Source: Porpolomopsis calyptriformis
Taxonomy: Eukaryota > Basidiomycota > Agaricomycetes > Agaricales > Hygrophoraceae
Length of the DNA: 64,000 bases
NCBI GenBank assembly: GCA_951640195.1
Contig: OX621173.1
Location: forward strand, 165,780 to 229,779
Reading direction: 5' to 3'
The position numbers and the translations under genes are program-made. A model generated the notes under the pieces. That model was not told the DNA's origin. It made no database searches and saw nothing but the letters and a program-made list of their open reading frames with translations. How positions within the stretch are numbered: position 1 is the first letter of the stretch; every line of letters begins with the position of its first letter. Shown in pieces: positions 1,966 through 24,700 of this stretch.

Positions 1966-2148
1966 AAGTAGACACAGATGCAAATGTATGTAGTAACAAT
2001 GACAACGATCTCTCTCTGTGTTCTCTGACTTCGGCTTGGGTAGTCTCAAGAGGACAATATCTTCCACTTCGGACTGGTCAGTATCAGCCAGGGTCATAAC
2101 GGATCCATTTCAACAGATTGTTACAGGATAACATTGCCCCGTTCCTAT

Positions 2149-2952
2149 TCAACCTGTATCCTGCCCCGTTCCACTCCCCTTCCTTCTTCGAAACTTCCTC
2201 CTACGTATCCGCCCAGATATAGATGGCCATGGTACCAATGGTACCGATGGTTCCGGCAAAGTTGGCCTGAACGTGACATCAAGGATGCCCTTCGCGGTGA
2301 CCAGTGGCATGATATCGCTGACCTCCATCACAGACAGAGGGCCTAAAATGTGCACAGATTGAAGGGAAGGTCTCGAGGAAAGATATGCGTCGAGGAGGGC
2401 CCAATTGACTTTGATGCCGTTATCCCAGTTGGCCCGTGTAAGATCGAGAGTGAACTTGGTCAAATCTTCCATAGAACATCCAGCAAATATCCTCGAGATA
2501 TCGATTAGGTTGACGTTACCCAGCCGTCTTAGTCGTAATCCAGAGAGGGTAACTTCCCTGAGCCACACGTTGTGGAAAAAGTTTAGGTGCGTGAGTTCGA
2601 CGCAGTCATCTTCATGCGGGGTTAGCGATAAAACCCAGACACATAGGAATAACCTGAAACACTGACAACCGGACGTATTGAATCCCAACCTGGTGACCCT
2701 CAGGTTGCTCCCAGCCCTCTTCAAATTTTGCTGAACCCAACCGCCGTGCCAATTCCTGATGGAGGTGAATTCAAGGAAACGAATCGGGTGTTGCGGCTTT
2801 GGCATTGGATCGACAAGCATGTATCGGGCCAGGAATGGAAACACAACGGAGGCAAAGTTCCTGTTTACTAGTGCCAGTGCGAGCAGATCTTGGGACGAGT
2901 TCTGAATGTAGGGGATAATTTTGAGCCACAGATCTATGGGAAGGGAAATCAT
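2149..2952 (-). CDS. F-box-like protein, copy 2
   Basis: A 267-residue single-exon frame starting at the ATG at 2952 (MISLPIDLWLKIIPYIQ), colinear with copy 1 along its full length: same F-box-like N-terminus, same LLALALVNR helix, same LSSRPSLQSVHILGPL block and LPEPSVP near the end. It keeps a basic C-terminal tail (RIRRRKFRRRKGSG) that copy 1 has lost. The frame is open upstream to 3030 but only through a TTG, and the ATG matches the paralogue. A SCF substrate adaptor is the expected role. It diverges from a small hypothetical gene at 3068 across 115 bp that hold a CACGTG at 3046-3051. Confidence 0.72.
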   Translation of the reverse strand: MISLPIDLWLKIIPYIQNSSQDLLALALVNRNFASVVFPFLARYMLVDPMPKPQHPIRFLEFTSIRNWHGGWVQQNLKRAGSNLRVTRLGFNTSGCQCFRLFLCVWVLSLTPHEDDCVELTHLNFFHNVWLREVTLSGLRLRRLGNVNLIDISRIFAGCSMEDLTKFTLDLTRANWDNGIKVNWALLDAYLSSRPSLQSVHILGPLSVMEVSDIMPLVTAKGILDVTFRPTLPEPSVPLVPWPSISGRIRRRKFRRRKGSGTGQDTG

Positions 2953-3067
2953 GATGGATGATGGTGGTTTTGGGAGACTTTCGGCTGCTCTATATACTAA
3001 GTCGACCTCGACGCTTTGACTCACTCTCAACTAAAATCGATTATTCACGTGGCTAGGGTCGCTTAAA

Positions 3068-3633
3068 ATGCCACAGTTTGACAGGGTGAACCTGAACGGT
3101 CCTCTACTACGACCATCTCCAGCAGTCTTCTTCATGACTGTGTCCGCGTCGCCTCACTTGGCCACTAGATCTCAATCTCAGAGGGTTACGACCTCAGACC
3201 AGATGGAGGGTGAGGGAAACCCCATGGGACCAGGATCTGCGGGGAATCAAAGTCACGCTGCCCAACATCACCAGGTGAGCTTGCTCTTTTCCTTTTTTTC
3301 AGGTTGACAGAGGGGACGTGTTAGGCGAATGAGATGAACATCCCCAAAGCTGTCAGCCCGAGAAGAAGAAAGCAATGGAAGGCCAAATTTTTGTCGGATG
3401 AGGAAACTGAAGAAACACTACTGACCGTCTATGTCAATTCAAAGAACACGAAGATGACAACCATAGCAGAGCCGTCGGTAAACACCCAGTCGACAACGGA
3501 TGGCGATGGCAAGATAGCCGAAGAGATCCAGCAAACAATCCACTGTGGGATCGTCACTGCGCCAACCCAGCCGGGGACTGATAATGACCCCATTGGACCA
3601 CAGTCGACGGAGAGCCATGGGATTGATGGTTAG
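3068..3633 (+). CDS. Hypothetical low-complexity protein, two exons
   Basis: I do not recognise this product. Exon 1 is 3068-3274. A GTGAGC donor and a 50-nt intron ending in GTTAG lead to exon 2 at 3325-3633 in phase 0, giving 171 residues. The protein is rich in Ser, Thr, Gln and Asn, with a basic patch PRRRKQWKAK near the start of exon 2, and has no membrane segment or known domain. It shares a short divergent promoter region with F-box copy 2. Composition is compatible with a disordered host protein or a gag-like leftover; the call rests only on an open frame plus a consistent intron. Confidence 0.3.
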
Positions 3634-4871
3634 GGGTCAGAGAGATCAAAACGATTTCAAACGGTTACGGCGAGAGGATGGAAATGCTGAGGTTGGGATC
3701 GAACGGTAAGGCTTTCATTAAAAAATCTGAATATCAGGCCCCTGTGTTGAATAATATGGTTATCAAGATTCGGCACGCAATCTCTCGGATGCAGTAGAGA
3801 AGCATGGATGGTGACCCTTGCCATCCCTCCCGTCTGTAGATTCCACCTTGTTCTCCCTTAGCCAACTTCCTCTTTACCTTCTTCTCAGGGTGGCCCTCGT
3901 ACCCATTCTCACTCCCGCACTCTCTTTTCCTACATTTCATCTGCTCACGCACGTCGGATATTCCCTATGAATTGAATTTTCATTATGACCTTTTGTGTTG
4001 GTATCCAGATGACCACTCACCAAGGTGCAAACCATTCACCGCTTCTCCAACATCATCAAGGATGGCAGTCACGCTCCATTACAAAGTGAGAAATAAGTGA
4101 TTCTGAGTCGTCTGAAGAAGCACAAAGATGTCTTTCAGCCGTACTTTAATCTTATGTTGCTATACTAGGTGTACCCGAGGCCCTTTACCTTGGCATGTCG
4201 TAGATTGACGGCATTTAAAGTTTTCTTAGCAGGCAAGTATTGCGTTCCATAATACAGGCTATCGATAAGGTTGAAGACATTAGCAAACCTTTGCCAAAAT
4301 GAGACTGTTGGAAGGAAGGGAAGGGAAATCAACGAAAAACAGTAACTAAATCACTCAATCACCCCCTCACATCTTTTCAGTGATGAAAATTTCTAGTTAC
4401 TGAAAAACAATACCACAGAGTAGGTTTGTAGGTGCGGATCATTAGCAAATTGGAAAACTTACATTTAGCTAAGGCGGCAGCTGACTAGTCTACATTAAAT
4501 TGACTTCACCGTGCCCAAAGTACATCTAATCATTGCATGATCACCACGAATCAGTGCCAGTTGATCTGTTTATCAGTAAATTTCAGTTACGAATGCTGTA
4601 ATACAATGAGAAAGTCGCTACTATTCAAACGAGAAAAAGAGACCTTCGGTGATAAAATTTCATTGATTTTAGTTCCAATGGAGATGACCTCAACATCTCA
4701 CTTGATTTTATGGTTCATCCTTCTTTTATAATTACACTCACGATTGTCCAAACTGCCTCTTTTGAAGTGCGCAGCCAAGCATAAGTTATGCTGGGCTCGA
4801 TTTGAACACCTACCAAATATAGGATTAACAAACATTCACAAGTTCCGAAAGCACTACCGAATCCGAATCCA
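3634..4871. other. Intergenic stretch without a supported gene
   Basis: About 1.2 kb, AT-rich towards the right. Open frames on either strand are short and have no recognisable motif. The right end is presumably the upstream region of the gene starting at 4872. Confidence 0.5.
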
Positions 4872-5971
4872 ATGGCAGATCTCGATTTTATTCTCAACGA
4901 TACCCATAGATGGCAGGATGGCATCTCAGAGGTTCAACCAAGCAGCTGGCTGTGTCTATTTGAATTGGAGAATTCAAAGAACTACCTGTTCAAACCGATG
5001 GGTTCCGACACAAAGATACGCTGGAAGTATTTTCCATTGGAATTCATTGCCTTTAATATCATCACGAATCAGTCTCGCCACTTTTCCTTGCCATTCATGC
5101 TGTGCCAACAGGTTGCGTTTCTTGATCTTCAATATTGGGCTAGCCTGGTTTCTGGAGATAAATCGATGTCGCGCTATTTAGAGCTGCTAAGGGATGACCT
5201 CCTTGAAGAATTCTTCGCAATGGAACCCCCTTCCAGCTTTAATGAACAACCTTGGAGTACCCGGCCTTGGGCCGTTCGAACGATGCACTCCTTTGGCCAC
5301 TCAAAGCCTGACCGTGACGCTTATCTCACCACATGCAGAGAACAGGGCTGGGAGAGTTATATGCATGGCAACCCATTGGAATATCGTACGTGATGAATCG
5401 CTCCCAAAGTCCTGATGGTTTATACTACGTTCTATAATAGGATGGACAGATATTTTCAACAAATATAAAAAACAAAATACCTGGATGAATTCGGGTCATC
5501 GTATTATAGACAGCCTTGCAAGCGCACTGAACAAAGCGAGGGAACATATCTCTGTGGGCCCTTCAAACGTTTTACTCTCTGCAGCCGACCTTCTCGACAA
5601 AGGCGACACCTGTTTGGCACAACAAGCTGGTGTGTGAATGGGATCCATCGCTCTCATGCTACATCAGATATCCTGACTAAACGATCAGCCACAGTCAAGA
5701 TCCCTGAGTTCGATATAAGTATCGACCCAACACATGTGGATAAATCACCATTGGATGTCGCATTGGCACATTCTACCTCAAAAGCTGGTACGTGAATGGG
5801 ATCTATGGGTCTCATGCCACACCAGATATCAAATATCTAGACTGATGATGATGATCAGCCACAGAGGAGATTTCTTCTTCATTCGCAGGCGAAATCGAAC
5901 AGAGGCTTAGGGCTCCATTGCCAACATGCATCGTGCAGCCAAACAAGTTAGTTCATTCAGCCGCTCGATAA
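4872..5971 (+). CDS. Orphan WAVR/HSFGHS family protein, stand-alone copy A
   Basis: Four exons: 4872-5385, 5441-5629, 5689-5787, 5859-5971, all junctions phase 1, total 304 residues. Exon 1 (514 nt) aligns without a gap to exon 1 of the gene at 9966-10887 and, less closely, to the N-terminus of the JmjC protein at 6637-9316. Shared landmarks are FLDLQYWA near residue 84, RYLE at 101, WAVR at 133-136 followed by HSFGHS at 139-144, a Tyr and Cys soon after, and EYRW across the first intron. Introns 2 and 3 and their exon edges are near copies of one another, so the C-terminal half contains an internal exon duplication. No catalytic motif is visible. I know no name for this family; function unknown. 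It is convergent with the JmjC gene. Confidence 0.65.
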
Positions 5972-6636
5972 CTTAGCATCCTTTGACTACTGTATAGCAG
6001 ACAATCATCTACACGTGTGGCCGTGGTACGAACCTCGGAACCTCCAAGTAGGCAGGCTACTCAACGTGAATTTATTTATTGCGTATTGATTTATTAACTT
6101 ATTCTTATTCTTATTTCTCTCCCACTTCAACAGCACAGGTTGAACGAGGGAAAAACTACAAACAAAACAAGTGGAAGCGGAATAAAAAGAAGAAAATGAA
6201 GGCAGCTCTATTACGAGAGACAGAGGCTGAGTTAGCTGCGCGCAACCCACCCAGCCAACCGACGCGACCCAACCATTCAACCACACGGGTGAACCGAGGG
6301 AGATAATAGCTTCAAGGGTGTAGCGCATCTGCTGGGCCAAACACTAACCGCAAGTACAACGTGGGGCTCTATCTCCCTAAGGGATAGGGAGTCCAGAAGC
6401 TGCCACCTTTCTGTATATGTAAATAAAGCAGATTGTGTTCGGCATATCTACTAGGTTACATGAGGTTGTAATTGGTTTCATCGCAGGCAAGGTAATGTAT
6501 GTATTCATGTATGTTTTTTTTTTTTCACGTGAGACATGAGCATCAAAGTCCAACTCAATTGTATCGATTGTAAAACTGTAACAAAGTACAGGCATATGAT
6601 AGCAGCACATCAATAGATAATGAATAGAAACTGTCC
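5972..6636. other. Convergent 3' intergenic region
   Basis: Separates the 3' ends of the orphan gene and the JmjC gene. It holds an AT-rich stretch, a T tract near 6514-6526 followed by CACGTG, and no frame with recognisable coding content. Confidence 0.45.
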
Positions 6637-9316
6637 CTATGGCGGTGGAAGAAAAAGTTCGGTGGATAAACATTTTTCTTCACTGAGCGCCATCCAATAC
6701 TCTCCACTGACGAGTACTTCTGACTCCATAGCTGTCAGGCTGATTCCTGCCCTTTCTAGTATCGCCTTGATCTGTTTCTGGGCCTCGTTGATTTCTCCTT
6801 CTTCCTCCTGAAAAAGGACATCCCACTCGGTCATCGGAAGGTCTGGCCTTTTCTGCTCACCCGGCAAAAGGTACTCATTCGATTTGAGAATCATTCTGGC
6901 CAGCGCCAAGAATGGCCTTCGATATATTTCTGGAAAGCTAGCTTTTAAACAAAAATGAGGGGATATCATTCATTCACGTGCTCACTTCGACTTTTGGCGA
7001 CATGTGGAAGCGCTAAAACCATGCGAGAAAGCAACCTTGAGACGTGGTGATTTGCATTTGTTGAAAAATGACCATGCATATGGTCGAAGTCCCGCGATTG
7101 TTCAGTGAGGTGAAGCGTCTCATAGGTATAAAAGTGACCTCCCGAACAATAGCTTGGCGTGGGGGTGTATACGGCATGCCAAATGCCAGGAGGCATAATT
7201 CTGACACATAGAATCAATATATGAGCATGAGTAATCAATTTTTAGAGCGTTAATAATATAAAAACTTACAGAATCTCCCCTGCAGAAAGAAACGTCGTGA
7301 AAATCTGAGCATGTTGATTCAGTTGGTGTAGTTGACTGAAGCAAATATCCTTGTGCAGGCTGCGCAACTTGTTCCGGGAGTTGTGACTTTTTGTGTATCT
7401 AGGTCGAATAATGGCCCAAATTTTTATCCCGGCGTGCGCATAGATCCAGGTACACAAGCCGTTAGCATCCTTGTGGGGGAATGTTACGAAGCCAGCATGC
7501 GTCAGCAGGTTCCACTGCATCATTTGCCAGGTGCACATCCGAATAACCTGTGGCCCTGGAAGGACTAGTTCTTGTCGAGTATTCGGCATCTTGTGATGCT
7601 TCGACTTGTCCTTTGGAGGGTGCTTCCAAAACTTCGCGAATGATTCATGTTTTGTGAGCTGGAATGCGAGTGCTTCGTCACTTATTCGACTGTTAAGGTT
7701 ACTTGTTGAAATAAGCCAATGTACAAGCTCTCAGCACTCTTACCATATAATAGAGGGGGCGGCATTTCTCAGTGAAGGGGCATCCAGGATATTTCCACAG
7801 ATGTCTACATCCTCAGATGCCTCGATAAACTCCCCCAGGGAAGAGTGGCTGTGGATGATGCCATCTGACTCCTTCTTGGACCTACCGACTGCACGCAATC
7901 TTGCGTCTATACAATATTAAACCACAGTAATCGTAGAGATGGATTTTACGTACCATGCCACTGAACTGGCTGGCTTAATGGACCCCTTGCTGCCTCGATC
8001 TCCTCCTTACAAAACGTCTCCGGACCTTCAAGATGTTGACCCTGTAATATAATGCATCGCTGATTAGCGAGATGGAGTCGCACGGCTTCATCGATGGCAT
8101 GAAGTGGTTGGGAAGGTTCTCTTGGTGGGATAACGACATAGTTAGTTTCATCCAAGTCCCAGTTGTTTATCGAATGGGTTGCAGATGAACCATCAGGTGA
8201 TTTGGCAAGCACCTCAACTAATTTAGCGTCCTTAACAAAGCTTCAGTTAGCTGATCAAGAACGAGCACAAAATGATGGACGGACTGCATTTTGATGGCCC
8301 GGAACGTGAACCCATGGAAGTACGGTTTGCGACCCATTGGCCCATTGAATCGAGGATGCGTCCTGGGGAAAGTTCACTCCCCTCAACGAAGTAAAGTAGT
8401 CGTGCTTATTCTGGGTGAGGGGTGCTGATGTTATGCGTTATCTTCTTCTTCATAAGGATGATGCGATGCGAATAACTTCACATACCAGATATCGTAGCTG
8501 GTTGATGTTTTTTTCGACTCGTGGGTTCTTCATCATCGGACAAAGATCGTTTTTGGGGAAGACTAGCGGCGCTCACTCCTTGGCCCAGTTCATTGGGATG
8601 GTTGATGAATCCGATCGCAATAAGATATTGCAGCGAGTCAGATTTCTCTTGAGCGGTATCGCTTGAAGTGCCAGCCGTCGCTGGAGAGTCTGACCAAGTG
8701 TCGGTCGCAAGCATCTCGTTCCCAAATGACACGACCCTGGATATGTGACTCTTCCAATCTTCAGTGAGCGATTTAATATCAGCTGTTGCACCCAATATTG
8801 ATAAGATTACTCACCATATTGAGTCGGATCGTCATCTTCATAAGGCAGACGGTTCTCGTTTTTGCAACGATCGGCATAGAGTTGGCGACCTGTTTGAGAG
8901 TGTCCAAATGAATGGTAGACTCTGACGGCCCATTGCTTCACCGTCTTCAATCGCAATGATGCTTGAGTGAGCAGTTTACGATCCTCAAACCACAACTCAT
9001 GCTGCACGGCCAAACAGAGGTTCTGGAGGTACTGTTTGATTCGTCCTGCATGTCGTACCTGGTTCTCTGCTTCAAGGCAGCTGTGGCGATGACTCAGGTC
9101 AAGGAAAGCAAGGATAGAGCGGTAATGGATGTGTATTTCGCGAGATCGCAGTGAGTTGTTGTGGTAGAAAAAGAGCTTGAATGTTGTTTGGGTTGATAAT
9201 TCTGAGAAGCGCCAGAAATTGGACGGTTTATTCAAGAGGGTGGATGTCTTGGCTGGCCATAAAGCCTCATCATCAAATAGCTCTCCTTCTTTGTTGGCTA
9301 TCGGTTGGGTGGCCAT
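6637..9316 (-). CDS. JmjC-domain protein with an orphan N-terminal domain
   Basis: Eight exons on the minus strand: 9316-8815, 8758-8486, 8424-8285, 8230-7954, 7906-7744, 7689-7270, 7200-6986 and 6929-6637, introns 48-70 nt, all phases consistent, 760 residues. JmjC proteins are Fe(II)/2-oxoglutarate oxygenases, often histone demethylases or protein hydroxylases. Visible here: HKD at 524-526 (the HxD iron ligands, followed by GLCTWIYAHAG) and the distal His at about 600 in MPPGIWHAVYTP, then GGHFYTYETLHLTE, a layout common in agaricomycete JmjC proteins. Residues 1-170 carry the WAVR (129-132) and HSFGHS (135-140) motifs shared with the two stand-alone genes beside it. The donor of exon 3 (GTCCGT) is weak. 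A CACGTG lies at 9341-9346, just before the ATG. Substrate unknown. Confidence 0.85.
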
Positions 9317-9965
9317 GATAATGAACGTATGTGTGGGGGTCACGTGGGTATTTATTCGATTAAAGAGTTTGAAAGCTACAAAGACGATATGATTCTATCC
9401 AGGACTTGGATTAGATCATGTGCTATAAATGAATGCCGTATTCTCAAGTTTGAGGGTGACAAAGAAGCCCTGACATTTTCTTTGCCATTTGATTCATTCC
9501 ACTACTCCTTCATCTGGTTGAAGGAGTTATAAATATTACGGTGAAAACCATCATCCTCATTATAATTTATTGAAGTGAAGGATACAGATTGTGGAGGTGT
9601 GAGGTATACCGCTGAGGAAAGGTGGCTACAATGATCTGTAAGTCCCATGGTAACTTGCAGCTGCTGTTCGCATGTAAAAAAACAAAAAACATCAAGAAAC
9701 TTTCATTATCATCTTCGTCTTCATCTTCGTCTTCATCTTCCTTTCGAATCGTGGAGGAATGGTAACACTGTTATCGGAGAATTGAGGCTGCCCCCCCTCT
9801 ATCTCAGCTTGGATCTTGGATCAGTATCAGCTTGGTAAATTCATCTGAATGAAATGCACCATGGGATCCCACTGGCTGATCATTATCAGCTGAAAGATTC
9901 ATTGCTAGCTGTGAAATACTAAATGATCACAATGAGTGAATGTGAACCATGTGTGTCTTACAGAC
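9317..9965. other. Intergenic region with a TCTTCR hexamer repeat
   Basis: Upstream region of the JmjC gene and 3' region of the next one. It contains a CTTCRT simple repeat at about 9713-9742 and several short direct repeats of ATCAGCTTGG/ATCAGCT type around 9807-9895. No coding frame supported. Confidence 0.45.
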
Positions 9966-10887
9966 CTACCCAAGATCAGCCTCATGGGTAGGTGATGATG
10001 TATTTACACCGTATCCATGGGAATCTGGGTTGATATTCTTCTCCTGAACATCGTTAGCCCACTGTTGGGCTGTATTTTCATTGATGCCAGTAGCAAAGAG
10101 AAGCATATAGCATTAGAGCATCCCTAAGCCAAGATGTGATTTCATTTACTCTCACCGTTAACTCCAAGGAACAAAGCAAGCGCACAGGTCACAGAGTGCC
10201 CTCTGTCAAACCGGGGAGGTTTCGTGTGTGATTCTAGCTGCTGGAGACATAGCTGGAACCCCCTGCTTAGCCAGTTTGTATGGGTTTCGAATAAAGTATG
10301 CCATTCTATGTAGTTTGAATTGGAAAGCATGATGAGATAAGGGAAGCTTGTGTATGCAGAAGCTGCCTCTTACGGTATAAGGTTGGGTCTTCATGGGTGT
10401 ATGGAGTCCACCCATTTGCCTTGCATTTCTGAAGGTACTCCCGTCTGCCGAAGAAAGAGTGGCCAAAAAAGTGATTCATTCTAACTGCCCACGGTATTGT
10501 CGTTTTAGGTTGGAAGCTAGAGCCAAAGCTGCCATGGTTTTGTGATAACTCAACCCAGAGATCAGACCTGAGCCTTTCCAGGTAACGTGTGATACGATTT
10601 GCACTGGGATGAGGGTTAGCAACATTCGCCCAGTATTCAAGGTCAAGAAGAGCGATCTGAAGTGTGGTCGATAGAGGGAGAGTGTAGTGTCGATGTTTGT
10701 TTCTGCTTTTGCAAAAAGCATGTAAAATGATCTGCTTTTGCTGGTTCAATTTGAGGGTCAAGTCAGGTTGTGTGAAAGGGTGGCTGATTTCCTCAAAGAG
10801 CCAGATGGTGTCGCTTGGTGGAACAGGAGAGCGATCGTTCGACCACCGATTATTATCCGCATCCAAGCATCGAGAAGAACACATCAT
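9966..10887 (-). CDS. Orphan WAVR/HSFGHS family protein, stand-alone copy B
   Basis: Three exons on the minus strand: 10887-10374, 10305-10156, 10069-9966; both junctions phase 1; 255 residues. The start at 10887 makes exon 1 exactly 514 nt, the same as copy A, and aligns the two proteins gap-free (LLDLEYWA near 80, RYLE at 101, WAVR at 133-136, FFGHS just after). The first intron sits at the same codon as in copy A and in the JmjC gene (Tyr then a split codon then Trp). The open frame continues upstream to 10953 but across what looks like an intron acceptor. After exon 2 the product is short, so this may be a truncated relative; a GGTGTAA at 10014-10008 could be a further donor. Function unknown. 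Confidence 0.6.
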
Positions 10888-11421
10888 TTGGTTCCAAGGG
10901 TAGTTACATTTGGGGGTGGGTGGATAACTGCATGAAAACAAGATAATCAGCATAAAATTTATCTAGATGTGGTGAAAAAATAAGCATTCATTCAATCGCA
11001 TGCGTATAGCCATTGTGGTGCTGGAAGTAGTTTCGTGTGTGAGTCACAGCTCTTGATCACTACTTAGGCTCCTCACACATCACTTCATAGCACATCACTT
11101 CATAAGTACATAACAGCTAGTTGATATTCACGCATACACAGACAAGATAGCTGGGAGTTAATCAATACAGTATCAAAGCAACTTGATATGTTATGCGTGA
11201 CATCACATTTGCATACCAAAATGGGATGGGAGTGGCGCATGTGAACTTGCTAATTTACACCTGCACACAGCTCAACATGTCTACACAGGTTTAGCACAAA
11301 TCGTATGTAGTAGACTTATATAGTAACTAGCTTGGAATGCAGCAATACAAGTTGATTAATATTTGTGGAAAGTTTGATGCGACATGCATGCAGCGTAATA
11401 GATGCTAATTCAGTAATTTTA
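10888..11421. other. Intergenic stretch without a supported gene
   Basis: AT-rich, with a short direct repeat of CACATCACTTCATA near 11079-11107. Nothing else recognised. Confidence 0.45.
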
Positions 11422-12572
11422 TCAAGACCATAACCTCCATGATGGTCTGTAGTTAAGCTTTCTGTCTCCATAGAGAACCTGAACCTGAGTGTGGTTGCTT
11501 TCGAGCATTTCACCTGACGCAATCATCTCCTCCATCCTTTTCAATGCCAACCGTGCAAACTCTTCACAGTCCATGTCTATCCAAGCATCGAATATACCAG
11601 CCCACGTAGCTGTGTTTGTAAAGGTATTATTGAGATATATAACTTGAGGCGATGCTTGTAAACTGGATTTGGGGGAATTTTTTGCTAAGATTCTAGCGGA
11701 CTGCTTGATAAAGTCAGTAGTACCCTTCACTTTCAAGCTAGTGCCAACCACAAGGAGAAGATCTAGTTGGCGACTGGGGGTGGTAGTTAACCCAAGATCA
11801 TTTTGCTGCACGTTTGCTATTTCTTCTCCTCGAGGATGTGGTTCTCCGTAAAGAATGATATTGGGTCGGAGTCGAGGCACAGTCGTTCTGCGTTTGCCCT
11901 GCTCTACCCTCTTTTCCATATTGATTTGACATTCAGTGCATTCTGGTAGTTGGCCCTCTTTCAAAGAGGGGTAGTATGGTTCGAGGATAAAAATGGAGGA
12001 GCAGCCAGGGCATCGTAGTTCCTCTAGGGATCCATGCAATGGAATGCATCGGGCTGGTCCATCACTGGGGTGAATTTCTGAGGACATATGTAACCCAGCC
12101 TTGAGCTCCAAACCATCGATATTTTGAGTGTAAACACGGAGTAACACTCCTTGGAGGTCTAGAGCACGAAGGAAATGGTGGAAGGCAGTGGGTTGTGCGA
12201 TCGCCGCTTTCTCAGCAAGGGTGGCAATGAGCTGACAATGCAGTGATTGTTGCTTTTGGGTCTAGAACATTAACTTGGTCAACTAATCCTCACTTGAACA
12301 TATATTTCTCACTACGAGGGATGAGCTAGTAAGCAGATCAGTCAGGTTGACTCCGGTAAATCCAGATAGTGCGTTGCCAGTATATAAGCCGTCTGGTCCT
12401 CTAAAACATGGAATACCTGCAGCCACGGATATTCCTGCTCCTAGAGAGTAGGTAAGTATTTGAATGAAACATGATGATGGGTCGATTTACCACAGAGCAT
12501 GACGATTCTCTTTGCTTTCAGTATTCCATCCATTAGATCTGTTGCACTTTGTTTTATAGTGGAGGGGAACAT
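11422..12572 (-). CDS. SIR2-family NAD-dependent protein deacylase (sirtuin)
   Basis: Three exons: 12572-12491, 12440-12313, 12261-11422; 349 residues. Sirtuins remove acyl groups from lysine using NAD+, and in fungi several act on histones. The hallmark motifs are present in order: GAGIS at 28-32, then GIPCFRGPDGLYT (normally GIPDFR, here Cys replaces Asp), YTQNIDGLE around 114-122, the catalytic His in LHGSL near 146, a zinc site with CPGC (154-157) and a second C-x2-C about 24 residues later, and VVGTSLKV further on. The start ATG gives a very short leader before the Rossmann fold, like the nuclear Hst3/Hst4-type or bacterial-like short sirtuins; I cannot assign the class. It follows the BAH/PHD gene in the same direction with only 72 bp between them. 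Confidence 0.87.
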
Positions 12573-12644
12573 AATAGCTGAGTTTTTAGCAGTAACACGG
12601 TGAAGGATAGTAGGTATTAGATAAGCTAGAAGAATGGTAAGGTA

Positions 12645-14010
12645 TCAAATAAGCAAATCTGAGCTACACCGAGGGCAAGTATAGTATGTTTGGTCTGTAA
12701 CGACTAATGGCTCATAAGAGTCTGTGTTATCTATGCCGAATTCTGCCTCAAGCCAGTTTTCCCAGTCAGTGTCTATCATATTTAACCGAGACTCCTCAAT
12801 GAGGTGAGCAGCTATCCATCCAGAGGCTTGGACGACACTGCGTTCCTGTGAAGAAAGCAACTTTCTAGCCTTGTTCACGATCCTAATATTTCCGGCTGTA
12901 AAATAAGTGAGACCTCCCCTAGCTGTGGGTTGGAAAGCAACTTGAAGTATAATTTTTGGGGTGTCGGCAAACTTCTCTATAGCATAGAGATTGTTAAGAT
13001 ACTGCTGCTGGGTAATGTTGGCAGGGGTTCCTAGGCAAGTAAGATGGGACCATCTTTTGCAGGACCAGCAGTAGCGTTGTTCCTCTGTATCGGGGGACCA
13101 AAGTGAATAACAGTGAGTTGCGCCACATATTTCTGGCTCGCCCTACCACCCAATAGATTACTACAGGGTATATGTTTAGTTCAATGAACGCACCTTCAAT
13201 GCCTGCCTATGCCCATCCCAGAAGTATCTAATAGAAATTTTAGTATAATAGATGGGTTGGTATTATCGTCAAGCTTACCGCATGTAATACGCGGTTACTG
13301 GAGGTTGATCTTCGATCTGATTTTTAATAATAACAATGTCGATTGTATCTACAGTTTAATTTTCAGTTCAGTTCAGTTCATTCTTTTATATCTGCTTCTC
13401 GATATAATAACCCTCACCTTCCAAGGCTTGCGCATCAATGATATCTGTAGAATCAGAGCCACACAGCTCTTGCTTTCCAAATGTGTTTATATACCTGTCA
13501 AGAGTAAGAAGAACATAGAGTGACAGGAGAAGGAGTAGGTTTTGAGATGCAACCTTTTAGTATCAGCCTTAACATCACTTCTCTCCAACAACTGCTTGGC
13601 TGTATACATCCATGAAACCTTAGCAAGATACTTGTTCTAAAGCACATTGTCAACATTGGGTAGGGTAGCTTGAGCAGGTGTATCACCTTAGTAGTTTTTC
13701 TTATTTGTAGGATCAAACCTTTCCAGTAGTCGTCCATTATAATATTATTTTCTTCCTTTGCATGGAGGCCAAGGTGACGGATGAGGCAGCTGTGTTTGAG
13801 GGAAATAATCAAATGACTACTATTCAAGCATTATCGATAAACACTTACAAGTCATTCTTAACGAATTTGCAAGGAGAGCCTATAAAGTTTTGATTCGGAA
13901 CAAATAGAACAAGGCATAGGTGATATCTCACCATCATTTGGATTAGGAACCTCGAGGTATTCTACGACTTTTGCAGATTTCCATTGTTTTTCCTCGGTTG
14001 TAGGTGCCAT
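12645..14010 (-). CDS. BAH and PHD-like zinc-finger protein
   Basis: Eight exons: 14010-13932, 13879-13849, 13789-13687, 13636-13554, 13494-13418, 13348-13279, 13227-13194, 13142-12645; total 975 nt, 324 residues, every phase closing. The N-terminal half reads like a BAH domain: YWKGLILQIRK, then AKVSWMYTAKQLLERSD, then YINTFGKQELCGSDSTDIID. BAH modules bind nucleosomes or modified histone tails. It is followed by RYFWDGHRQALKG and a Cys/His cluster (ICGATHC...YCWSCKRWSHLTCLG) with the C-x2-C-x2-W-x-H-x2-C ending of a PHD-like finger. The C-terminal ~110 residues include TCPRCSSDLL near the end, a possible extra zinc knuckle. A chromatin reader is the likely role. It is divergent from the large orphan gene. 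Confidence 0.68.
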
Positions 14011-14139
14011 AATAATAAATCTACGGACCAATGTTGATTATTCGTATTATATTCCCACAGCTATATATATGTCACGTGAATGTAGATACACTTTGTCTCG
14101 ACTATTGCACAAACATAGCTCTCGATCTTAACCTCCAAT
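14011..14139. promoter_or_regulatory. Shared divergent promoter with CACGTG box
   Basis: Only 129 bp separate the start codons of the BAH/PHD gene (14010, minus) and the large orphan gene (14140, plus). The centre has a TATATATAT run at 14062-14070 directly followed by TCACGTGA at 14072-14079, a palindromic E-box of the kind bound by bHLH factors. Whether it is functional is inference. Confidence 0.5.
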
Positions 14140-17100
14140 ATGGCAAACCAGGCAAATGAAGGTGCAGATTATGACAGTGATATAGATAGGATCATAGCTA
14201 TGTCCTCACTAGCCAAGGTAAGCCTATCCCTAGTAGTTATGTATCTAATTCGATTCACACAATTAAATCATTACGAGGCTAATAAAACCATAATAAACCA
14301 GGAAGGGGATTCGACTTCTAGTGGTTCAGATGATAGTGATATACGTAATATCCTGAATATGCCTTGTGCAGAGAAGATGCCAATGCCAATACCGATGCTA
14401 GGAGAAAAACATATGCCTTCCAAAAAACATATATTAATCAACAAAAAGCCAGTATACTCAGTAAGTGTATATCTGTTTTCAAGGTTAAAGTGCTCACATT
14501 ATTACAGACAACGTTAATTAGCCTAAATCATCTTAACATCCAGAATTCGGATCAGCAATATATATCGATACCTCCATTGGCTCCCTTAGGTCCCCAGCCA
14601 GGTCCTTCAAGGGTCCAAAACGCAATAAGTAGAAAGGATAATGACGCTGTATGTCTCAATTAACCTATGACAATAATAACTTACATTTATTTATTTTCCA
14701 GGTGGCGAAAGCATGGTATGTATTTTAAGAGAAATCATAAGATACTTGCGTATTAATACTGGTTAGGTTTAGTGATTATAGCTCTCCTTCAGAGCCTTCG
14801 GTGGATATTAGAAGGAACAACTCGCGATTTGAAACCAGACACCGGTGAATAAATCTATCATTCGAAATGTTAGGTTAAATACTAAACTTTTAGAAGCTCA
14901 ACAAGCCGATCATCGTCGCCAGCTAGCAATAACGGATCAGATTTCATTGGATCCAGTGAAAGTGACAGCGCTCATTCTCATTTACTAGCAAAAAATGCCA
15001 TTCGATTGAATCTACCACGATCTGAGCAAGAGCTTTTTATAGGTATGTTCTTATATTATTGGTGGTGATTAGACTCATTAAGGATATTAGACACGAAGCT
15101 AGCAGATCCAAGGATATGGGCTTCAGCTTGTCAATCATTGGGATCTGCTAAGCCTGGAAACCACCTGGATCACGCGGTCATAGAAATTTACCTTTTGAAA
15201 TCATGGTATATGTCCATTCAACCCCAGATGCCATCTCAGAGATATTCCTACTATCTAGACTCGGAAACGGTGAGCAGGGTAATAAGAGAAGAAGAAGACA
15301 TCCTGTCTACCGAAATCCATAAAACTCTCCTTCTTCCACCTCACGTTGCTATCCCGAAAAAGCCTGTGTTATTTTTCCCTCCACTATCATGGCAATCTTC
15401 TGCAACCCAAAGGCTAGCTTTATTTGATTACCAGCAGGAGAAGGTTCTTGTTTTTAGCCATGGAGCTCCACTCGAAACCAATATGTACTCAGATTGGACG
15501 GAGTGGAATGGCAACTACTATTGGAGGGCTATTGCTAATGTGTTTGGGTGGATCCTGGGTAGTGAGTTGGATGAGCGAGGTCCCCAAGTAATCGAACCGA
15601 ATTGGAATACGGTGAAAATCTCGTTTCTATACAGAAGAAGCATATTCATATACATATTTCAACAGAGTGAGGCCGACACTGGTTCCTGGATGGCATCGCT
15701 TTGCCAAGAAATCTTTGATAATGGTTGGATGTATTCCACAGACATTAACCAACACCCACTTGCACCCAAATTGCAATGTGTTCATGCGATGCGAGAGAGA
15801 ATATTTCTCACTGCGCTTCAAACTGTACAAAAATCATATGACTTCTGGAACAAGACTCAGACCCTGCTTCGGTATTCCATGGAACCCAATTCTGAGGTTG
15901 TGAATGATATGAAGGCTGGGCTTTTAAAATTCAAGCGTTTCGAGGTAATAGCACTTGCGCTTGCAACTGCTCGTATGAAGTGTGAGTATTATCTCATTCC
16001 GATTACCTGTGATAATCAATCTAAAGAGGCTACCTATATTAATCAACTAGGCCATCTTCTGGATAGTCACGACAAGGATGGCAATGCCAGCAATGACGAC
16101 AACAATCACAATGATGATGACAATGACAATGACAATGATGACAACGATGATGATTCCATTGTAATCAACCTACCACCTCAGCCTTCCAGAAGGTCTCTAC
16201 CTGAAATCCAACTTCCAGAGGTTGAGCTAAATGGGAATGGGGGTGAAGAAGCATTAGCAACAAGCGTTGATGAGCGGCCTTTTGATGACTACGAATCAGC
16301 TATGTTGGTTTGCTCCGAGGATCAAGCTGATATCATTCCAAACACGTGGACCTTTGACACCAATGGAATGCTTGTATTGGGCAAGCACTGGAGTATCTGG
16401 AGGGATAGAGGCTATAGGTTGCAGGCCGATTTTTTCTCTATGTTCAATAACCAGGAACCGGTTCTCCTCAATGACCACCTTCTTCCACACTGGGATTCAA
16501 GTGATCAAGCAAGTGGATGTTTACCATCATCTCCAGTTGCATACCCATCCTCGTTATCTTCTCATTCTTCTGAGGTGCTGAATTCCCTACTAGCTATGGA
16601 CAACCCAGATGTGACTGTGATGGGTGCTCAGGATATGTTGGATGAGGCGGGAGGGGTGGAAGGGACATCAGAGAGCCAGGGTGTGTTTGTAAAAGGTAAA
16701 GCACGCAACAACAAATTCATCTACTTCGACTTGGAGAAGGATAGAGTAAACCTGGACGATGAAGAAGTGTCAGTGTCGGTGGATATCGACAGCGTCATAT
16801 GGGTCACGCATAAACCACAGTTCATTGGTCCAATCAATATTCACCTTCTTCCACTGTTAGACGACAAACCTCCATTCTCTATCAACAATCATGTCTATGT
16901 CCAGGTTCTACAACCACCTACCACTCGAAATCCTAGGCAGAGGTCTAAAAGGTATCCACTTAGTGCCTTGCCACATACCCATTTCGGGCAGATGGGTCAA
17001 GGATCAGGCCAATTTAACACCTACGTCTTCTTCCCTCGTATGATTAGGAAAGACCCAGGAACGCATAGAATGACTACTCTGATGCCAAGGGAGGTACAGG

Positions 17101-19507
17101 AGTTGTGGTTCTCACAAGTGATCATGCCTGCTCTGCCAGTGGTTTTAGCCAACTACACCGGAATTATGGAGTATCTTCCTACAAGCGTCAGTAATCTCCA
17201 ATGGAAAATAGGGACAAGACGTACGACCAAGACCATTCCCCTCACACCTGAAGCATTTTCTTCCATGCGAACCACTCTCTGCGACATCATAAATAACCAG
17301 CCCGATCTCCTAGGCCGATTCGGGTCCTTTTTCTTTGTTGTAGATGCTCGAGGTATCAAACTGCTCTCTAAGCAGCACCACCCAACCGAGAATATATATC
17401 AGGCACTCTGTTCGATGATTCCTAACATGGACTGGGATTATATGAAGGACCGATCGCATGGAGAACTCTTGCTTGATCTTGGGATTTCATACCATCCTCC
17501 TTCTAGGGAGGATCAGGAGCCATTGGTAGGGCTGTGGAGGTTAGATAGGATCGACGACTCGTACGACCTTATGGGGATGAAAAAAGGAATGACCCATTAT
17601 ACTGCCATGTTTGGAGCTTATGGAGGGAGACAGGCTGAAACCAAGTTGAAGAAAAGTCGGCTTGTACACCTTTGCTTCCGATCCAGCTACAACCTTTGCT
17701 TTGAGGTGGTGCGACTTCCTGGCCAAACGAACTACCTATGTGATGACTGTGATGCAGTCAAGACAAATGACCGATTCATGACTAGCTGTGATCACTGGAA
17801 AAAGCTGTTTCAATCTTCTCAAATCCAGTCATTCGGCGTTAGAGAAGAAGTTAGAGGGAGTGGGTTAGCCATTATAAAGCTTCTTGATGTAGCATCTGAA
17901 AAGGTAAGCAGCGAAATAACTGCAAACTAGAAATGTCTAATGATTGCCAGGCACAAGACTATATGTCATCTGACCCTATCATTTGGATCAAGTCGAGCCT
18001 CTTTTTCAAGTTGTTGGCAAGAAGGCTAGCAGAGTTTCAAAACGTCCAACTACACCTTTCACGAAATCGACCAAGCAACTATGGAATGATGGCTACGCTT
18101 ATCATCCACCTGATTAAGCACACCATGGTCACGCCAAGGATAAAGCACACATTCTTGAATGATGTGTTGCGAGACCTTCGTTTCAGTTCGATAATGTGGA
18201 GGTTCGGAATGTTCTTTCTTCACGACCTCAAGTTGAAGAAAGGAGTGCTATCTCTAAGAGAACTACCGGAGGAGGATCCAGCTGAGGTTATCCAAGCATA
18301 TGGACAGTCCTTGAAGAAGCCACAGGCAACTCAAGCCAACCAGCCATATCACCTTATTCAAATGTATCAGCAAGATGCGTGCCCTTGGGGTCCCGATCCA
18401 TCTTGGTCAAGAATTCAGAAACTGTTGGAAACCGAGCCAGAGATTTTCCTTAGGGAATGGAGGTTGGATGATGACTGGGAAGCTCCTGAACTGCTTTACA
18501 CGAAGCTGTTGTTTGTTGAGTTCACGCATCAGCTGTGGCTAAGTCTGGCAGAGCAGTTTGCATCAGCAGGTGTTTTACCCAAGCCAACCACAGTTCAGGA
18601 AGCAATGGAGACTTGGACGGTACCTGCGATTCAGCATATCATAGGCATTGACCGTTGCCGATTCCTTCCTTCGAGCTGTGGCCTTAAAGGAAAGCTTCCT
18701 TTGAGTCACTCCCGTGATCTATCATTTTCAGCACATCGGGCAACCTTCTTCCCTGAACAAACTATCCAGATCCCAGAGAATTCAGTCTGGAAACCATACA
18801 CCAAGCCTGGAGGATATATCTCCACTTACCACCAATATCTTGTGGATTGGGATATGGATGAAGGTGATCAGCTCTGCCGTGAATTGGACAACATATTTGG
18901 CCAGTTACAATGCCTTCCTGTAGGTGGCCTATCGAATAAAAAGGGGAAACAAGTCATATGGGGGATGAAATCAGGCAAGATCAACTTTATTTCGAATTCA
19001 AAGTTCTATCGGATTGAAGAAATTGGGAAAGAGGTGGCTGCGCGTCCACGAACTCAGGTCCTAAAAAGGCCTCGTGCTTCAAAGAATATACTTCAGAGAC
19101 GACTAGATGAAACCTTGGGGAGATCGATAAAACCACCTATTCGGAGCCGAAAGTCTGCCAAAATCTACCAAAAATGAAAGCCTCCTGTGAGACGGAAAGC
19201 AGACAACAATCCTTCAGGTTCAGAGAGCGGGAAAGAGCAACAGGTTAGGGTTACTCGCTCAAAGGCCAAGGCTGCCCAGAAAGACGAGGGAAGAAAGGGG
19301 GTGAGTGGTGTGCGGATAACTCGGTCAAGAATGAACGCTGCTAGGAAAGATGCGGAGAGAGAAGATTCAGGTTCAGGAAGACATATAGTAGGTAGATCTC
19401 AGTCAAGAGTCAAGGCTGCTAGGGAACGGGCAGATTTAGAGTCTGATTCCGATTCCGATTCATTAGAGTACACAGATGAGCCAGGATCAGAGCAATCTAG
19501 TAGCTAA
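14140..19507 (+). CDS. Large orphan protein, full-length copy with C-terminal nonsense codon
   Basis: Nine exons: 14140-14217, 14302-14460, 14508-14648, 14702-14715, 14767-14844, 14894-15042, 15091-15611, 15666-17903, 17951-19177; 1534 residues to a TGA at 19175-19177. The frame then stays open to 19507, and the second copy has CGA at that place, so the ancestral protein was about 110 residues longer. I do not recognise the family. Visible: acidic Ser/Asp repeats at the N-terminus (DSDID, SDDSDI), an Asn/Asp tract encoded at 16093-16155, a long globular middle with LWFSQVIMPALP, a C-x2-C (LCDDCDAVK) near the end of exon 8, and a basic tail with repeated TRSKAKAA, TRSRMNAA and SRVKAA units then an acidic end. 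No transposase signature that I can see. Possibly a nuclear, DNA-associated protein by tail composition only. Confidence 0.65.
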
Positions 19508-19559
19508 TGTATCGATTTGAAGATTATATATTCACAGGTCTATTCTACCTATATGTGTT

Positions 19560-21440
19560 ACACTGCTCATTGTGGTACCCCAATCAGTCTGCCCATGGGG
19601 ATGTGGTTATTCTGGGATGTTATCACACTAATGCTATTGATTGAACATAACATGCTGATGGTTAGAGAGCTCGGTGAGAAGTTGAAGGTATAACCTCTGA
19701 TACCTCTTGCATGCTAATTACGGTACCCCAATTATTCCGCACATGAGGATTGGACTACTCCTGATGTTTGTAGCACCAATGCTATTGATTGAACATAAAA
19801 TCCTGATGCTTAGAGGGCTCTCTGATAAGTTGAAGGTGTACCCTCCCATACCTGTTGTATACTTATTGCGGCACCCTAGTTAATCCACACGTGATGATTG
19901 AACTATTCCTAACCTTTGTAATACTCATGCTATTGATTGAACATAAAATCCTGATACTCGGAGAGCTCTGTGATAAGTTGAAGGTATATCATCCGATACT
20001 TCTTACATACTATACCCCAATCATTCCACACATGAGGATTAGACTACTCCTGACCTTTGTAACACTAATGCTGTTGATTTAACATAAAATCCCGATGATT
20101 AGAGAGCTCTCTGATAAGTTAAAGGTATACCACCCCATGATATCTTATATACTTATTGCGGCACCCTAGTCAATCCATACACGAGGATTAGACTATTCCC
20201 AATGTTTATAACACTGATGCTATTGATTGAACATGAAATCCTGATGCTCAGAGAGCTCTGTGATAACTTGAAGGTATACCCCCCCCTACCTCCTGTATAC
20301 TTCTTGCGGCACCCCAGTCTATCTACACATGATGATTGGACTATTACCAATATTTGTAACACTGGCGCTATTGATTGAACATGAAATCCTGATGCTCAGA
20401 GAGCTCTGTGATAAGTTAGAGATATACCCCCCCATACCCCTTATATAGCTTATTGCAGTGCCTCATTCTGTCCATATATTGTCATTCCAAGCATCTGTAA
20501 CACTGGTGCTATTGATTGAACATGAAATTGTGATGTTTAAAGAGGTCTGTGATAAGTTGGAGATATACTCCACCATACCCCTTATATAGCTTATTGCAGT
20601 ACCTCATTCTGACCATATATTGTTATTCCGAGCATCTATGACACTGGTGCTATTGATTGAACATGAAATTGTGATGTTTAAAGAGGTCTGTGATAAGTTG
20701 GAGATATACTCCCTCATACCCTTTATATAACTTATTGGTGTGCCTTATTCTATCCATATATTGTTATTCCGAGCATCTATGACACTAGTGCTATTGATTG
20801 AACATGAAATCATGATGTTTAAAGATATCTGTAATAAGTTGGAGATATACCCCCCCATACCCCTTATATAACTGATTGCGGTACCCCAAATGGTCCATAA
20901 CTTAGGATTTTTGTATTCCCCACCTCTATGACACTGGGGCTATTGATTGAATATAAAACCCAGATTTTTAAAGAGCTCTGTGATACATTGGAGATATACC
21001 CCCCCCATACCCCTTATATGGCTTATTGCGGTATATTATTCTGCCTATAAATCAGGATTTTGTTATTCCAAGCCTCTATGACACTACTGCTATCGATTGA
21101 ACATGAAATCCCGATTTTTAAAGAGCTCTGTGATAAGTTGGAGATATACCCCCCCATACCCCTTATATAGCTTATTGCGGTACCCCAAATGGTCTATAAA
21201 TCAGGATTTTTGTATTCCCAGTATCTGTGACACTAGTGCTATCGATTGAACATAAAATCCTGATTTTTAAAGAGCTCTGTGATAAGTTGGAGATATACCA
21301 CCCCATACCCCTTATATCACTGATTGCGGTACCCCAAATGGTGCATAAATTGGGATTTTTGTATTCCCCACCTCTATAACACTAGGGCTATCGATTGAAT
21401 ATAAAACCCCGATTTTTAGAGCAGTCTATAGCCACTTATA
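19560..21440 (+). repeat. Satellite-like tandem array, unit 141-150 bp, first copy
   Basis: Thirteen diverged monomers, followed by a decayed one, lie directly behind the orphan gene. The anchor CTATTGATTGAACAT (or close variants) occurs at 19634, 19782, 19930, 20071, 20220, 20368, 20509, 20650, 20791, 20940, 21090, 21239 and 21388, spacings 141, 148, 149 or 150. Each monomer also has GAGCTCTGTGATAAGTTGGA and a pyrimidine stretch ATACCCCCCCATACCCCTTATAT. The two length classes (141 and ~149) differ by an 8-base indel. Confidence 0.9.
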
Positions 21441-21760
21441 CCTATACCTCCTCCTAAACCCTTACTATCTTCTACCACGACATACCAAATGCTCTAAAAA
21501 TCGGAATTTTGGGTGGGCCCACCATTAGTTCACTGTGCCTATCGAATGGACATGAAATTGTGATTTATAGAGTGCAATACAATAGCTGGGCTGCATAATG
21601 GTATAAATGGAGTATTTTACATATATCTCAAGAATGGGACCGCCGATTTTTTTAATTTATGGCTTAAACTGATTGTATTGGGATGCCCTAACGATCCCCC
21701 AAAGAATTTTGAATTAATTTTGTGCCAGCATTTTGGTCATTTTGTTAATAATGGGTCCCT
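21441..21760. other. End of duplication unit 1, non-coding
   Basis: AT-rich sequence after the satellite, including a decayed monomer near 21539 and a tail ending GGGTCCCT at the junction with unit 2. No gene seen. Confidence 0.5.
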
Positions 21761-24700
21761 GAAGCATATTCATATACATATTTCAACAGAGTGAGGCCGA
21801 CACTGGTTCCTGGATGGCATCGCTTTGCCAAGAAATCTTTGATAATGGTTGGATGTATTCCACAGACATTAACCAACACCCACTTGCACCCAAATTGCAA
21901 TGTGTTCATGCGATGCGAGAGAGAATATTTCTCACTGCGCTTCAAACTGTACAAAAATCATATGACTTCTGGAACAAGACTCAGACCCTGCTTCGGTATT
22001 CCATGGAACCCAATTCTGAGGTTGTGAATGATATGAAGGCTGGGCTTTTAAAATTCAAGCGTTTCGAGGTAATAGCACTTGCGCTTGCAACTGCTCGTAT
22101 GAAGTGTGAGTATTATCTCATTCCGATTACCTGTGATAATCAATCTAAAGAGGCTACCTATATTAATCAACTAGGCCATCTTCTGGATAGTCACGACAAG
22201 GATGGCAATGCCAGCAATGACGACAACAATCACAATGATGATGACAATGACAATGACAATGATGACAACGATGATGATTCCATTGTAATCAACCTACCAC
22301 CTCAGCCTTCCAGAAGGTCTCTACCTGAAATCCAACTTCCAGAGGTTGAGCTAAATGGGAATGGGGGTGAAGAAGCATTAGCAACAAGCGTTGATGAGCG
22401 GCCTTTTGATGACTACGAATCAGCTATGTTGGTTTGCTCCGAGGATCAAGCTGATATCATTCCAAACACGTGGACCTTTGACACCAATGGAATGCTTGTA
22501 TTGGGCAAGCACTGGAGTATCTGGAGGGATAGAGGCTATAGGTTGCAGGCCGATTTTTTCTCTATGTTCAATAACCAGGAACCGGTTCTCCTCAATGACC
22601 ACCTTCTTCCACACTGGGATTCAAGTGATCAAGCAAGTGGATGTTTACCATCATCTCCAGTTGCATACCCATCCTCGTTATCTTCTCATTCTTCTGAGGT
22701 GCTGAATTCCCTACTAGCTATGGACAACCCAGATGTGACTGTGATGGGTGCTCAGGATATGTTGGATGAGGCGGGAGGGGTGGAAGGGACATCAGAGAGC
22801 CAGGGTGTGTTTGTAAAAGGTAAAGCACGCAACAACAAATTCATCTACTTCGACTTGGAGAAGGATAGAGTAAACCTGGACGATGAAGAAGTGTCAGTGT
22901 CGGTGGATATCGACAGCGTCATATGGGTCACGCATAAACCACAGTTCATTGGTCCAATCAATATTCACCTTCTTCCACTGTTAGACGACAAACCTCCATT
23001 CTCTATCAACAATCATGTCTATGTCCAGGTTCTACAACCACCTACCACTCGAAATCCTAGGCAGAGGTCTAAAAGGTATCCACTTAGTGCCTTGCCACAT
23101 ACCCATTTCGGGCAGATGGGTCAAGGATCAGGCCAATTTAACACCTACGTCTTCTTCCCTCGTATGATTAGGAAAGACCCAGGAACGCATAGAATGACTA
23201 CTCTGATGCCAAGGGAGGTACAGGAGTTGTGGTTCTCACAAGTGATCATGCCTGCTCTGCCAGTGGTTTTAGCCAACTACACCGGAATTATGGAGTATCT
23301 TCCTACAAGCGTCAGTAATCTCCAATGGAAAATAGGGACAAGACGTACGACCAAGACCATTCCCCTCACACCTGAAGCATTTTCTTCCATGCGAACCACT
23401 CTCTGCGACATCATAAATAACCAGCCCGATCTCCTAGGCCGATTCGGGTCCTTTTTCTTTGTTGTAGATGCTCGAGGTATCAAACTGCTCTCTAAGCAGC
23501 ACCACCCAACCGAGAATATATATCAGGCACTCTGTTCGATGATTCCTAACATGGACTGGGATTATATGAAGGACCGATCGCATGGAGAACTCTTGCTTGA
23601 TCTTGGGATTTCATACCATCCTCCTTCTAGGGAGGATCAGGAGCCATTGGTAGGGCTGTGGAGGTTAGATAGGATCGACGACTCGTACGACCTTATGGGG
23701 ATGAAAAAAGGAATGACCCATTATACTGCCATGTTTGGAGCTTATGGAGGGAGACAGGCTGAAACCAAGTTGAAGAAAAGTCGGCTTGTACACCTTTGCT
23801 TCCGATCCAGCTACAACCTTTGCTTTGAGGTGGTGCGACTTCCTGGCCAAACGAACTACCTATGTGATGACTGTGATGCAGTCAAGACAAATGACCGATT
23901 CATGACTAGCTGTGATCACTGGAAAAAGCTGTTTCAATCTTCTCAAATCCAGTCATTCGGCGTTAGAGAAGAAGTTAGAGGGAGTGGGTTAGCCATTATA
24001 AAGCTTCTTGATGTAGCATCTGAAAAGGTAAGCAGCGAAATAACTGCAAACTAGAAATGTCTAATGATTGCCAGGCACAAGACTATATGTCATCTGACCC
24101 TATCATTTGGATCAAGTCGAGCCTCTTTTTCAAGTTGTTGGCAAGAAGGCTAGCAGAGTTTCAAAACGTCCAACTACACCTTTCACGAAATCGACCAAGC
24201 AACTATGGAATGATGGCTACGCTTATCATCCACCTGATTAAGCACACCATGGTCACGCCAAGGATAAAGCACACATTCTTGAATGATGTGTTGCGAGACC
24301 TTCGTTTCAGTTCGATAATGTGGAGGTTCGGAATGTTCTTTCTTCACGACCTCAAGTTGAAGAAAGGAGTGCTATCTCTAAGAGAACTACCGGAGGAGGA
24401 TCCAGCTGAGGTTATCCAAGCGTATGGACAGTCCTTGAAGAAGCCACAGGCAACTCAAGCCAACCAGCCATATCACCTTATTCAAATGTATCAGCAAGAT
24501 GCGTGCCCTTGGGGTCCCGATCCATCTTGGTCAAGAATTCAGAAACTGTTGGAAACCGAGCCAGAGATTTTCCTTAGGGAATGGAGGTTGGATGATGACT
24601 GGGAAGCTCCTGAACTGCTTTACACAAAGCTGTTGTTTGTTGAGTTCACGCATCAGCTGTGGCTAAGTCTGGCAGAGCAGTTTGCATCAGCAGGTGTTTT

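Follow-up and report, generated by a model that had tools for sequence, protein, structure and literature searches.

HeT-A, TART and TAHRE and the terminons of bdelloid rotifers have a fixed inner end and a truncated outer end, and Y' elements are subtelomeric, multicopy and protein-coding. In Drosophila, HeT-A, TART and TAHRE form tandem arrays at chromosome ends and join to broken ends, as passages of one account describe (PMC4700185), and excerpts of another place RecQ helicase genes in the subtelomeres of A. bisporus var. burnettii (PMC7473861). Among fungal DNA transposons, Kyakuja, Zisupton and Plavaka carry TET/JBP genes, which sections of the source argue to counter methylation-based silencing (PMC12730594). 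In this study we analysed a window of 64,000 nucleotides of the agaricomycete Porpolomopsis calyptriformis (GCA_951640195.1, contig OX621173.1), which holds a sirtuin gene, a PHD-type reader gene, a JmjC-like oxygenase gene and a large orphan gene within 13 kb. Our results showed that this block of chromatin genes is one copy of a very large chromosome-end element, which is present in about 60-70 copies. The initial annotation had offered the block either as a host silencing module or as cargo of a mobile or selfish region. A host module at a single locus was rejected because the block is repeated ~60-70 times, and the cargo option gained from the mostly terminal position of these copies and from their fixed end sequence.

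The assembly comprises 33.5 Mb in 17 contigs, 14 of them large, which are labelled C1-C17 here, and the window is C11:165780-229779. The SIR2 search of the genome gave 74 matches from 75 candidates, and 65 were counted as element sirtuins after the exclusion of eight rows taken as exons of cellular sirtuins and of C12:206048, which was regarded as cellular at 29% identity to the element sirtuin. Fifty-nine of the 65 lie on the 14 large contigs, two on C15 and four on C16. On the large contigs, 57 of 59 are less than 450 kb from an end and 53 of these 57 are transcribed toward that end; counted over all 59, 55 point to the nearer contig end. No stop was found in the matched stretch of 55 of the 65, barring two stops that were placed in an intron. 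When 40 copies each of the sirtuin, the orphan and the JmjC gene were scored in DNA searches (65, 72 and 63 candidates, respectively), all were ~100% identical. The 3' ends of the orphan, located by an exact pattern, were present less than 400 kb from 22 of the 28 ends of the large contigs. Sirtuin copies within arrays are ~21-101 kb apart, and their intervals are regular in two arrays, five consecutive ones on C5 measuring exactly 29,310 bp each and three on C16 measuring 49,281 bp.

The centromere side of the element is one exact terminus of ~97 bp. Its motif was found at 104 genome sites with at most one mismatch, and at none with a reversed-pattern control. Position counts rest on the 100 sites listed, of which 93 are on large contigs and 86 less than 400 kb from an end, with 74 of the 86 pointing inward. 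Thirty-four junctions were read and gave 23 distinct outside sequences, and the first outside base was A or T in all 23 flanks (chance ~9e-7 at 45.4% GC, assuming independent flanks). In arrays, the terminus meets interior points of the element (on C5 at L013:3899 and on C2 at L018:7413), and a shared subtelomeric sequence, L012, is met at a different point by each of the termini of C1/C4, C9, C16 and C11, at four points in all. The other flanks had no match in the sequence compared, except one with 85% identity to window positions 63251-63349.

Two junctions could be followed in the window, where part of an element unit and a second partial copy occupy positions 1..27885 (+). This unit is near-identical to several contig starts and ends, extends beyond the left edge of the window and closes with the constant terminus; no other copy with a sirtuin lies further inward on this left arm of C11. 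Its 97-bp inner terminus (21666..21762, +) is joined to a point equal to its own position 15639, within the orphan gene of another copy, and the partial second copy that follows (21763..27885, +; 98.9% identity to 15639-21762) consists of the 3' part of the orphan, the repeats and a terminus. The latter (27789..27885, +), one base off the usual motif, cuts at 27885 a Ty3/Gypsy-type retroelement with RNase H and chromo domains (27886..31000, +), whose family is dispersed over the chromosomes and whose other copies begin to match at window position 27882. Tandem repeats and retroelements had been thought to follow the gene block at once. Both are present, the array of ~141-149-bp repeats (19620..21418, +) being inside the element between the orphan and the terminus, and the retroelement starting at 27886, where the element ends.

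The telomere side is variably truncated, either by the terminus of another unit or directly by telomere repeats. Telomere repeats were present at six of the 34 contig ends (the left end of C12 and the right ends of C1, C6, C7, C14 and C16). On C6 right they follow an element cut at window position 7210, and on C7 right they follow a cut inside the sirtuin gene, at about window position 11674. A guess that the telomere of C16 right also sits on a truncated unit was dropped, as the stretch tested did not match. The junctions have the pattern of inner units that lost sequence from their telomere side and were afterwards capped by the following unit.

These features resemble HeT-A, TART and TAHRE and the terminons in the arrays at chromosome ends, in the proposed capture of broken ends and in the fixed inner and variable outer end, some copies described below being exceptions. 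In contrast to these retroelements and to the terminons, the element coexists with telomere repeats of the TTAGG/TTAGGG type, its terminus of ~97 bp has an inverted partner, it carries chromatin enzymes as cargo, and the parts scanned, which cover the longest copies incompletely, gave no reverse transcriptase. The scan covered two 10-kb pieces in six frames, together with chosen frames from the window and from further pieces. Like Y' elements and the subtelomeric RecQ genes, the element is subtelomeric, multicopy and protein-coding, yet it ends in an exact terminus at unrelated targets, and the one type of helicase gene seen here has two genome copies (L020:3060-4127 at C12 left and C3:2702651-2703718), ~3-7 kb from contig ends. 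At C12 left this gene lies between the telomere and the element, outside the element, with a Helicase_C match of 42.9 bits, and it is RecQ-like only through a sub-threshold match to the zinc domain. No RecQ gene was present in the unit parts scanned, other parts being unread.

To the left of the window, the sequence of other copies (C10, C5, C6 and C16) contains a TET/JBP frame, an alpha-kinase frame and a Ulp1-type protease. The Tet_JBP match has an E-value of 1.4e-6 and 28.1 bits, under the cut-off of 34.9, and a genome search with the TET frame gave 38 matches from 38 candidates, 29 at 100% identity, eight at 98-99% and one at 92%. Three older copies were read in this region (C9, C7 and C4), and in each of them the TET segment has the opposite orientation to that of the common form. 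An agaricomycete host and fixed termini, and probably TET/JBP cargo, are shared with Kyakuja, Zisupton and Plavaka; in contrast to these transposons, no KDZ transposase is found in the arrays and no target site duplication was recognised. The KDZ search gave 19 genome matches from 20 candidates, none in arrays and the nearest ~2 kb outside a terminus on C8, so that the element falls outside the TET-carrying KDZ transposons, and KDZ was rejected as its mobiliser. Starships are marked by a captain, a tyrosine recombinase with DUF3435; no DUF3435 match was found among the Pfam-scanned frames, no dedicated search of the element or the genome having been made. A UBA_MELK match over the cut-off in read-through frames of C10 was taken as repeat noise, as no stretch passes alone.

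We consider it probable, by a modest measure, that this giant element attaches itself, through a single terminus, to chromosome ends that are broken or eroded, and that it carries chromatin genes with it. New copies would join their single active terminus to such ends, thereby providing a new end, and the joined copies would then multiply through recombination into tandem arrays. The fixed end and the A/T rule would be consistent with a joining step of the transposase type, and the orphan may be the protein that joins or binds the ends. Histone and DNA marks at the ends would be acted on by the sirtuin, the PHD-type reader, the JmjC-like protein and the TET/JBP dioxygenase, which may keep the element expressed and open to recombination. 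A more specific proposal, which we advance tentatively and at less than even confidence, is that the element is a DNA-based counterpart of telomeric retroelements, which captures broken ends via a terminus recognised by a protein, the orphan, and sets the state of the end with its own chromatin enzymes, beside a working telomere-repeat system.

Several observations weigh against attachment by one end. Four near-end sirtuins, all on right arms (three on C9 and one on C13), face the opposite way. Reverse transcriptase, transposase and Rep were all missing from the parts scanned, with much of the longest element unread. The terminus also has an inverted counterpart on the left. Among nine copies with both ends read, eight have the same left outside sequence, termed X here, and two of these eight carry X on both sides; the shared left flank counts against the proposal because simple one-ended joining does not predict X. 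The ninth pair (C5, 332-348 kb) is ~15.5 kb apart and has other flanks. Coding differences among terminal copies (four silent and four amino-acid changing) are too few to judge selection, and two fold models of the orphan have mean pLDDT values of only 32 and 33.

The inverted partners of the terminus are the chief support for a conventional giant cut-and-paste DNA transposon of ~28.8 or 52 kb with terminal inverted repeats of ~97 bp, which would prefer subtelomeres, use the orphan as transposase and form arrays by nested insertion and recombination. In pairs picked from the list of sites, the partners are ~28.7-28.9 or 51.8-52.7 kb apart, and they are identical at 94-95 of 97 positions in seven pairs. 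The Ulp1-type protease and the TET/JBP gene also speak for it, the latter being known cargo of fungal DNA transposons (PMC12730594). Against this, no target duplication was recognised where both ends were read (nine copies), eight of these copies have an identical left flank, and with KDZ absent from the arrays no known transposase family was met in the parts scanned. We regard a cut-and-paste transposon as rather unlikely, and as the most serious alternative to attachment by one end.

Passive subtelomeric repeats of the Y' kind, which would spread by homologous recombination and break-induced replication while the chromatin genes serve the host, agree with the near-identity of the scored copies, the exact period of the C5 and C16 arrays, the subtelomeric site and the mostly open frames. 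Homologous recombination fails to explain one exact terminus at 23 different sequences, and the telomere-side helicase has only two copies and lies at C12 left outside the element, which makes this explanation improbable. Helitrons have TC...CTRR ends, insert between A and T and encode Rep/helicase. The element likewise ends in 5'-TC...CTGA-3', with one fixed and one variable end and no target duplication seen, and could be taken for a rolling-circle element with one-ended transposition. We find this very improbable, as the base before TC would not always be A (13 of the 23 flanks have A there and the other 10 have T), the ends make inverted repeats of ~97 bp, and the parts scanned contain no helicase or Rep, the rest being unread. 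That assembly errors account for most of the arrays, with few copies in reality, is scarcely credible: the identical unit spacing on C5 and C16 and the small contigs C15 and C16 with two and four element sirtuins would suit it, but the 34 junctions have 23 different flanks, two truncated copies are capped by telomere repeats, many contigs have copies on both arms, and the copies differ from one another at single sites, all of which counts against it.

Attachment by one end, if true, would mean that a selfish element acquired a sirtuin of the silencing type, together with other erasers of marks, for life at chromosome ends, and control of subtelomeric chromatin by a parasite could be put to the test in this case. 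A further implication would be that DNA elements, besides retroelements, can rebuild chromosome ends alongside telomere repeats. The parts of the element recall telomeric retroelements and TET-carrying transposons, but among the titles and opening lines of abstracts listed by searches of an open-access library, none describes their combination with a separate sirtuin clade or any chromosome-end element that carries a sirtuin. Several erasers on a single element would take further the idea that transposon TET/JBP genes counter methylation-based silencing, argued in an article whose main text does not contain the words sirtuin, JmjC or PHD (PMC12730594).

The sirtuin gene (11422..12572, -) was modelled with three exons (12572-12491, 12440-12313 and 12261-11422) and encodes 349 aa. 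The protein matched Pfam SIR2 with 109.9 bits (cut-off 24) over profile positions 1-179 of 180, which places it in the SIR2 family. The core motifs of SIR2 proteins are GAG, TQNID, the catalytic His, four Cys and GTS. In a 10-sequence alignment TQN, D, HG, four C and GTS were invariant, and GAG is shown by the spliced model, the exon concerned being missing from the window row of the alignment. The description as a SIR2 deacylase with all core motifs was borne out by the profile match, with one departure from the norm, namely a Cys that replaces the Asp of the GIPxFR motif and that recurs in one of 100 retrieved motif-bearing proteins.

The closest named relatives of the window sirtuin are agaricomycete Hst4-type proteins, and it is 36% identical to the cellular Hst4 of the host. 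The phylogenetic tree was built from 57 chosen rows, the retrieval having listed the best 120 of 729 proteins. The window sirtuin fell in a clade of 23 short proteins with support of 100/100 (itself and 22 retrieved relatives, one from the bolete Butyriboletus), apart from cellular Hst4 and hence outside the Hst4 type in this tree; the remaining 34 rows were 32 named fungal proteins and two cellular sirtuins of the host genome. Long branches were seen for one host row and for two members of the clade. The host's cellular Hst4 was 65-68% identical to its 14 best matches among the retrieved proteins, mostly from agaricomycetes. The element sirtuin is like the Hst3/Hst4 group in its nearest named relatives and differs from it by its separate clade, its shorter length and the Cys in GIPxFR. 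Hst3/Hst4 sirtuins remove H3K56 acetylation and influence replication-linked repair and repeat stability. By analogy, an Hst4-related sirtuin on the element could favour array growth or silencing.

The PHD-type reader gene (12645..14010, -), with a possible BAH domain in its 5' half, lies upstream of the sirtuin on the same strand, and the gap of 72 bp (12573-12644) proved exact. Its description as a BAH/PHD-like reader held less well: the window exon scored 17.5 bits against Pfam PHD, and PHD scored 15-21 bits where found, against a cut-off of 24, and Pfam did not detect a BAH domain. The PDB search matched plant EBS (E 0.038, query 94-203) as the sole chromatin protein, with three Rab-family matches ranking higher. 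EBS is a BAH-PHD protein, and a BAH domain in the reader is plausible from this similarity. The JmjC-like oxygenase gene (6637..9316, -; PF02373) has several exons, and its single approximate spliced model scored 22.4 bits, under the cut-off of 24; the HxD and the distal His that had been noted were both read by eye. The initial annotation of this neighbourhood was thus only partly confirmed, because the BAH and JmjC assignments are sub-threshold. Two paralogues of the N-terminal region of the JmjC protein were also found, at 4806..5393 (+; 27% identity over 100 aa, E 9e-9) and at 10306..10962 (-; 37% identity over 123 aa, E 5e-15), as frames of their own with no JmjC match.

The orphan gene (14140..19507, +) has several exons in an approximate model, the main exon frame being 15069-17930 (953 aa). 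It was said to share a 129-bp promoter with the reader, and the gap between the two divergent start codons is indeed exactly 129 bp (14011..14139). The window exon matched no Pfam family at E<=5, the homologues had only stray Pfam matches (best E 0.0091, in one member), and no PDB match was better than E 0.12, so that Pfam, the PDB profile search and NCBIfam gave nothing usable on its identity. Relatives in viral contigs were rejected, since neither of two pattern stretches was related. The first orphan copy of the window carries a premature stop; at 70 exact-match genome sites, 66 were open and four, this copy among them, had the stop. At the protein level the main exon was open in 45 of 48 scored copies (75 candidates). 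The orphan is a candidate for the joining or end-binding protein of the element.

Older copies seen decay while terminal copies stay uniform. For 11 copies located at contig ends or close to them, comparison with the window gave 3-30 differences over 6.4-10 kb, and an interior copy on C9 has 59 differences over 8 kb, 41 of them of the C-to-T or G-to-A type. Two copies ~490 and 548 kb from ends, this C9 copy being one of them, have a sirtuin stop in common. In the frames counted, differences confined to interior copies (C9 and C1) comprised 22 amino-acid changes, 13 silent changes and four stops, a spectrum like that of decaying genes. Apart from these counts, C9 at ~276-548 kb and C1 at ~3553-3830 kb show mirrored positions of retroelements and old element copies, with coordinates that sum to ~4.10 Mb, which suggests a large inverted segmental duplication between two chromosomes reaching an old element copy.

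Among 5.77 billion proteins, the orphan had six homologues and the PHD exon eight, none with an NCBI source. Subtelomeric-type regions tend to drop out of short-read assemblies, and such loss may explain these homologues without an NCBI source. The expectation that reader, sirtuin and orphan are neighbours elsewhere held for a minority of homologues. A sirtuin (P0001), an orphan (P0121) and a PHD protein (P0128) are each on one metagenomic contig of 9,176 bp, and a sirtuin (P0003) and a PHD protein (P0127) are each on one of 19,025 bp; contigs of equal size were taken as the same contig, on which all three genes, or reader and sirtuin, would be linked. For five of the six orphan and six of the eight PHD homologues, the lists, which for sirtuins held the best 120 of 729, contained no such size match.

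Some minor features were also recorded. Two F-box-like reading frames, at 563..1372 (+, 16.4 bits) and 2149..3030 (-, 17.9 bits), both under the cut-off of 24.3, sit in an inverted repeat of ~1.05 kb with ~81% identity. A frame for a G-patch protein (41429-42094, -), barely over its cut-off, is on the centromere side of the element boundary. The end pieces of C17 (84 kb) are AT-rich or tRNA-like by eye, and this contig is possibly the mitochondrial genome.

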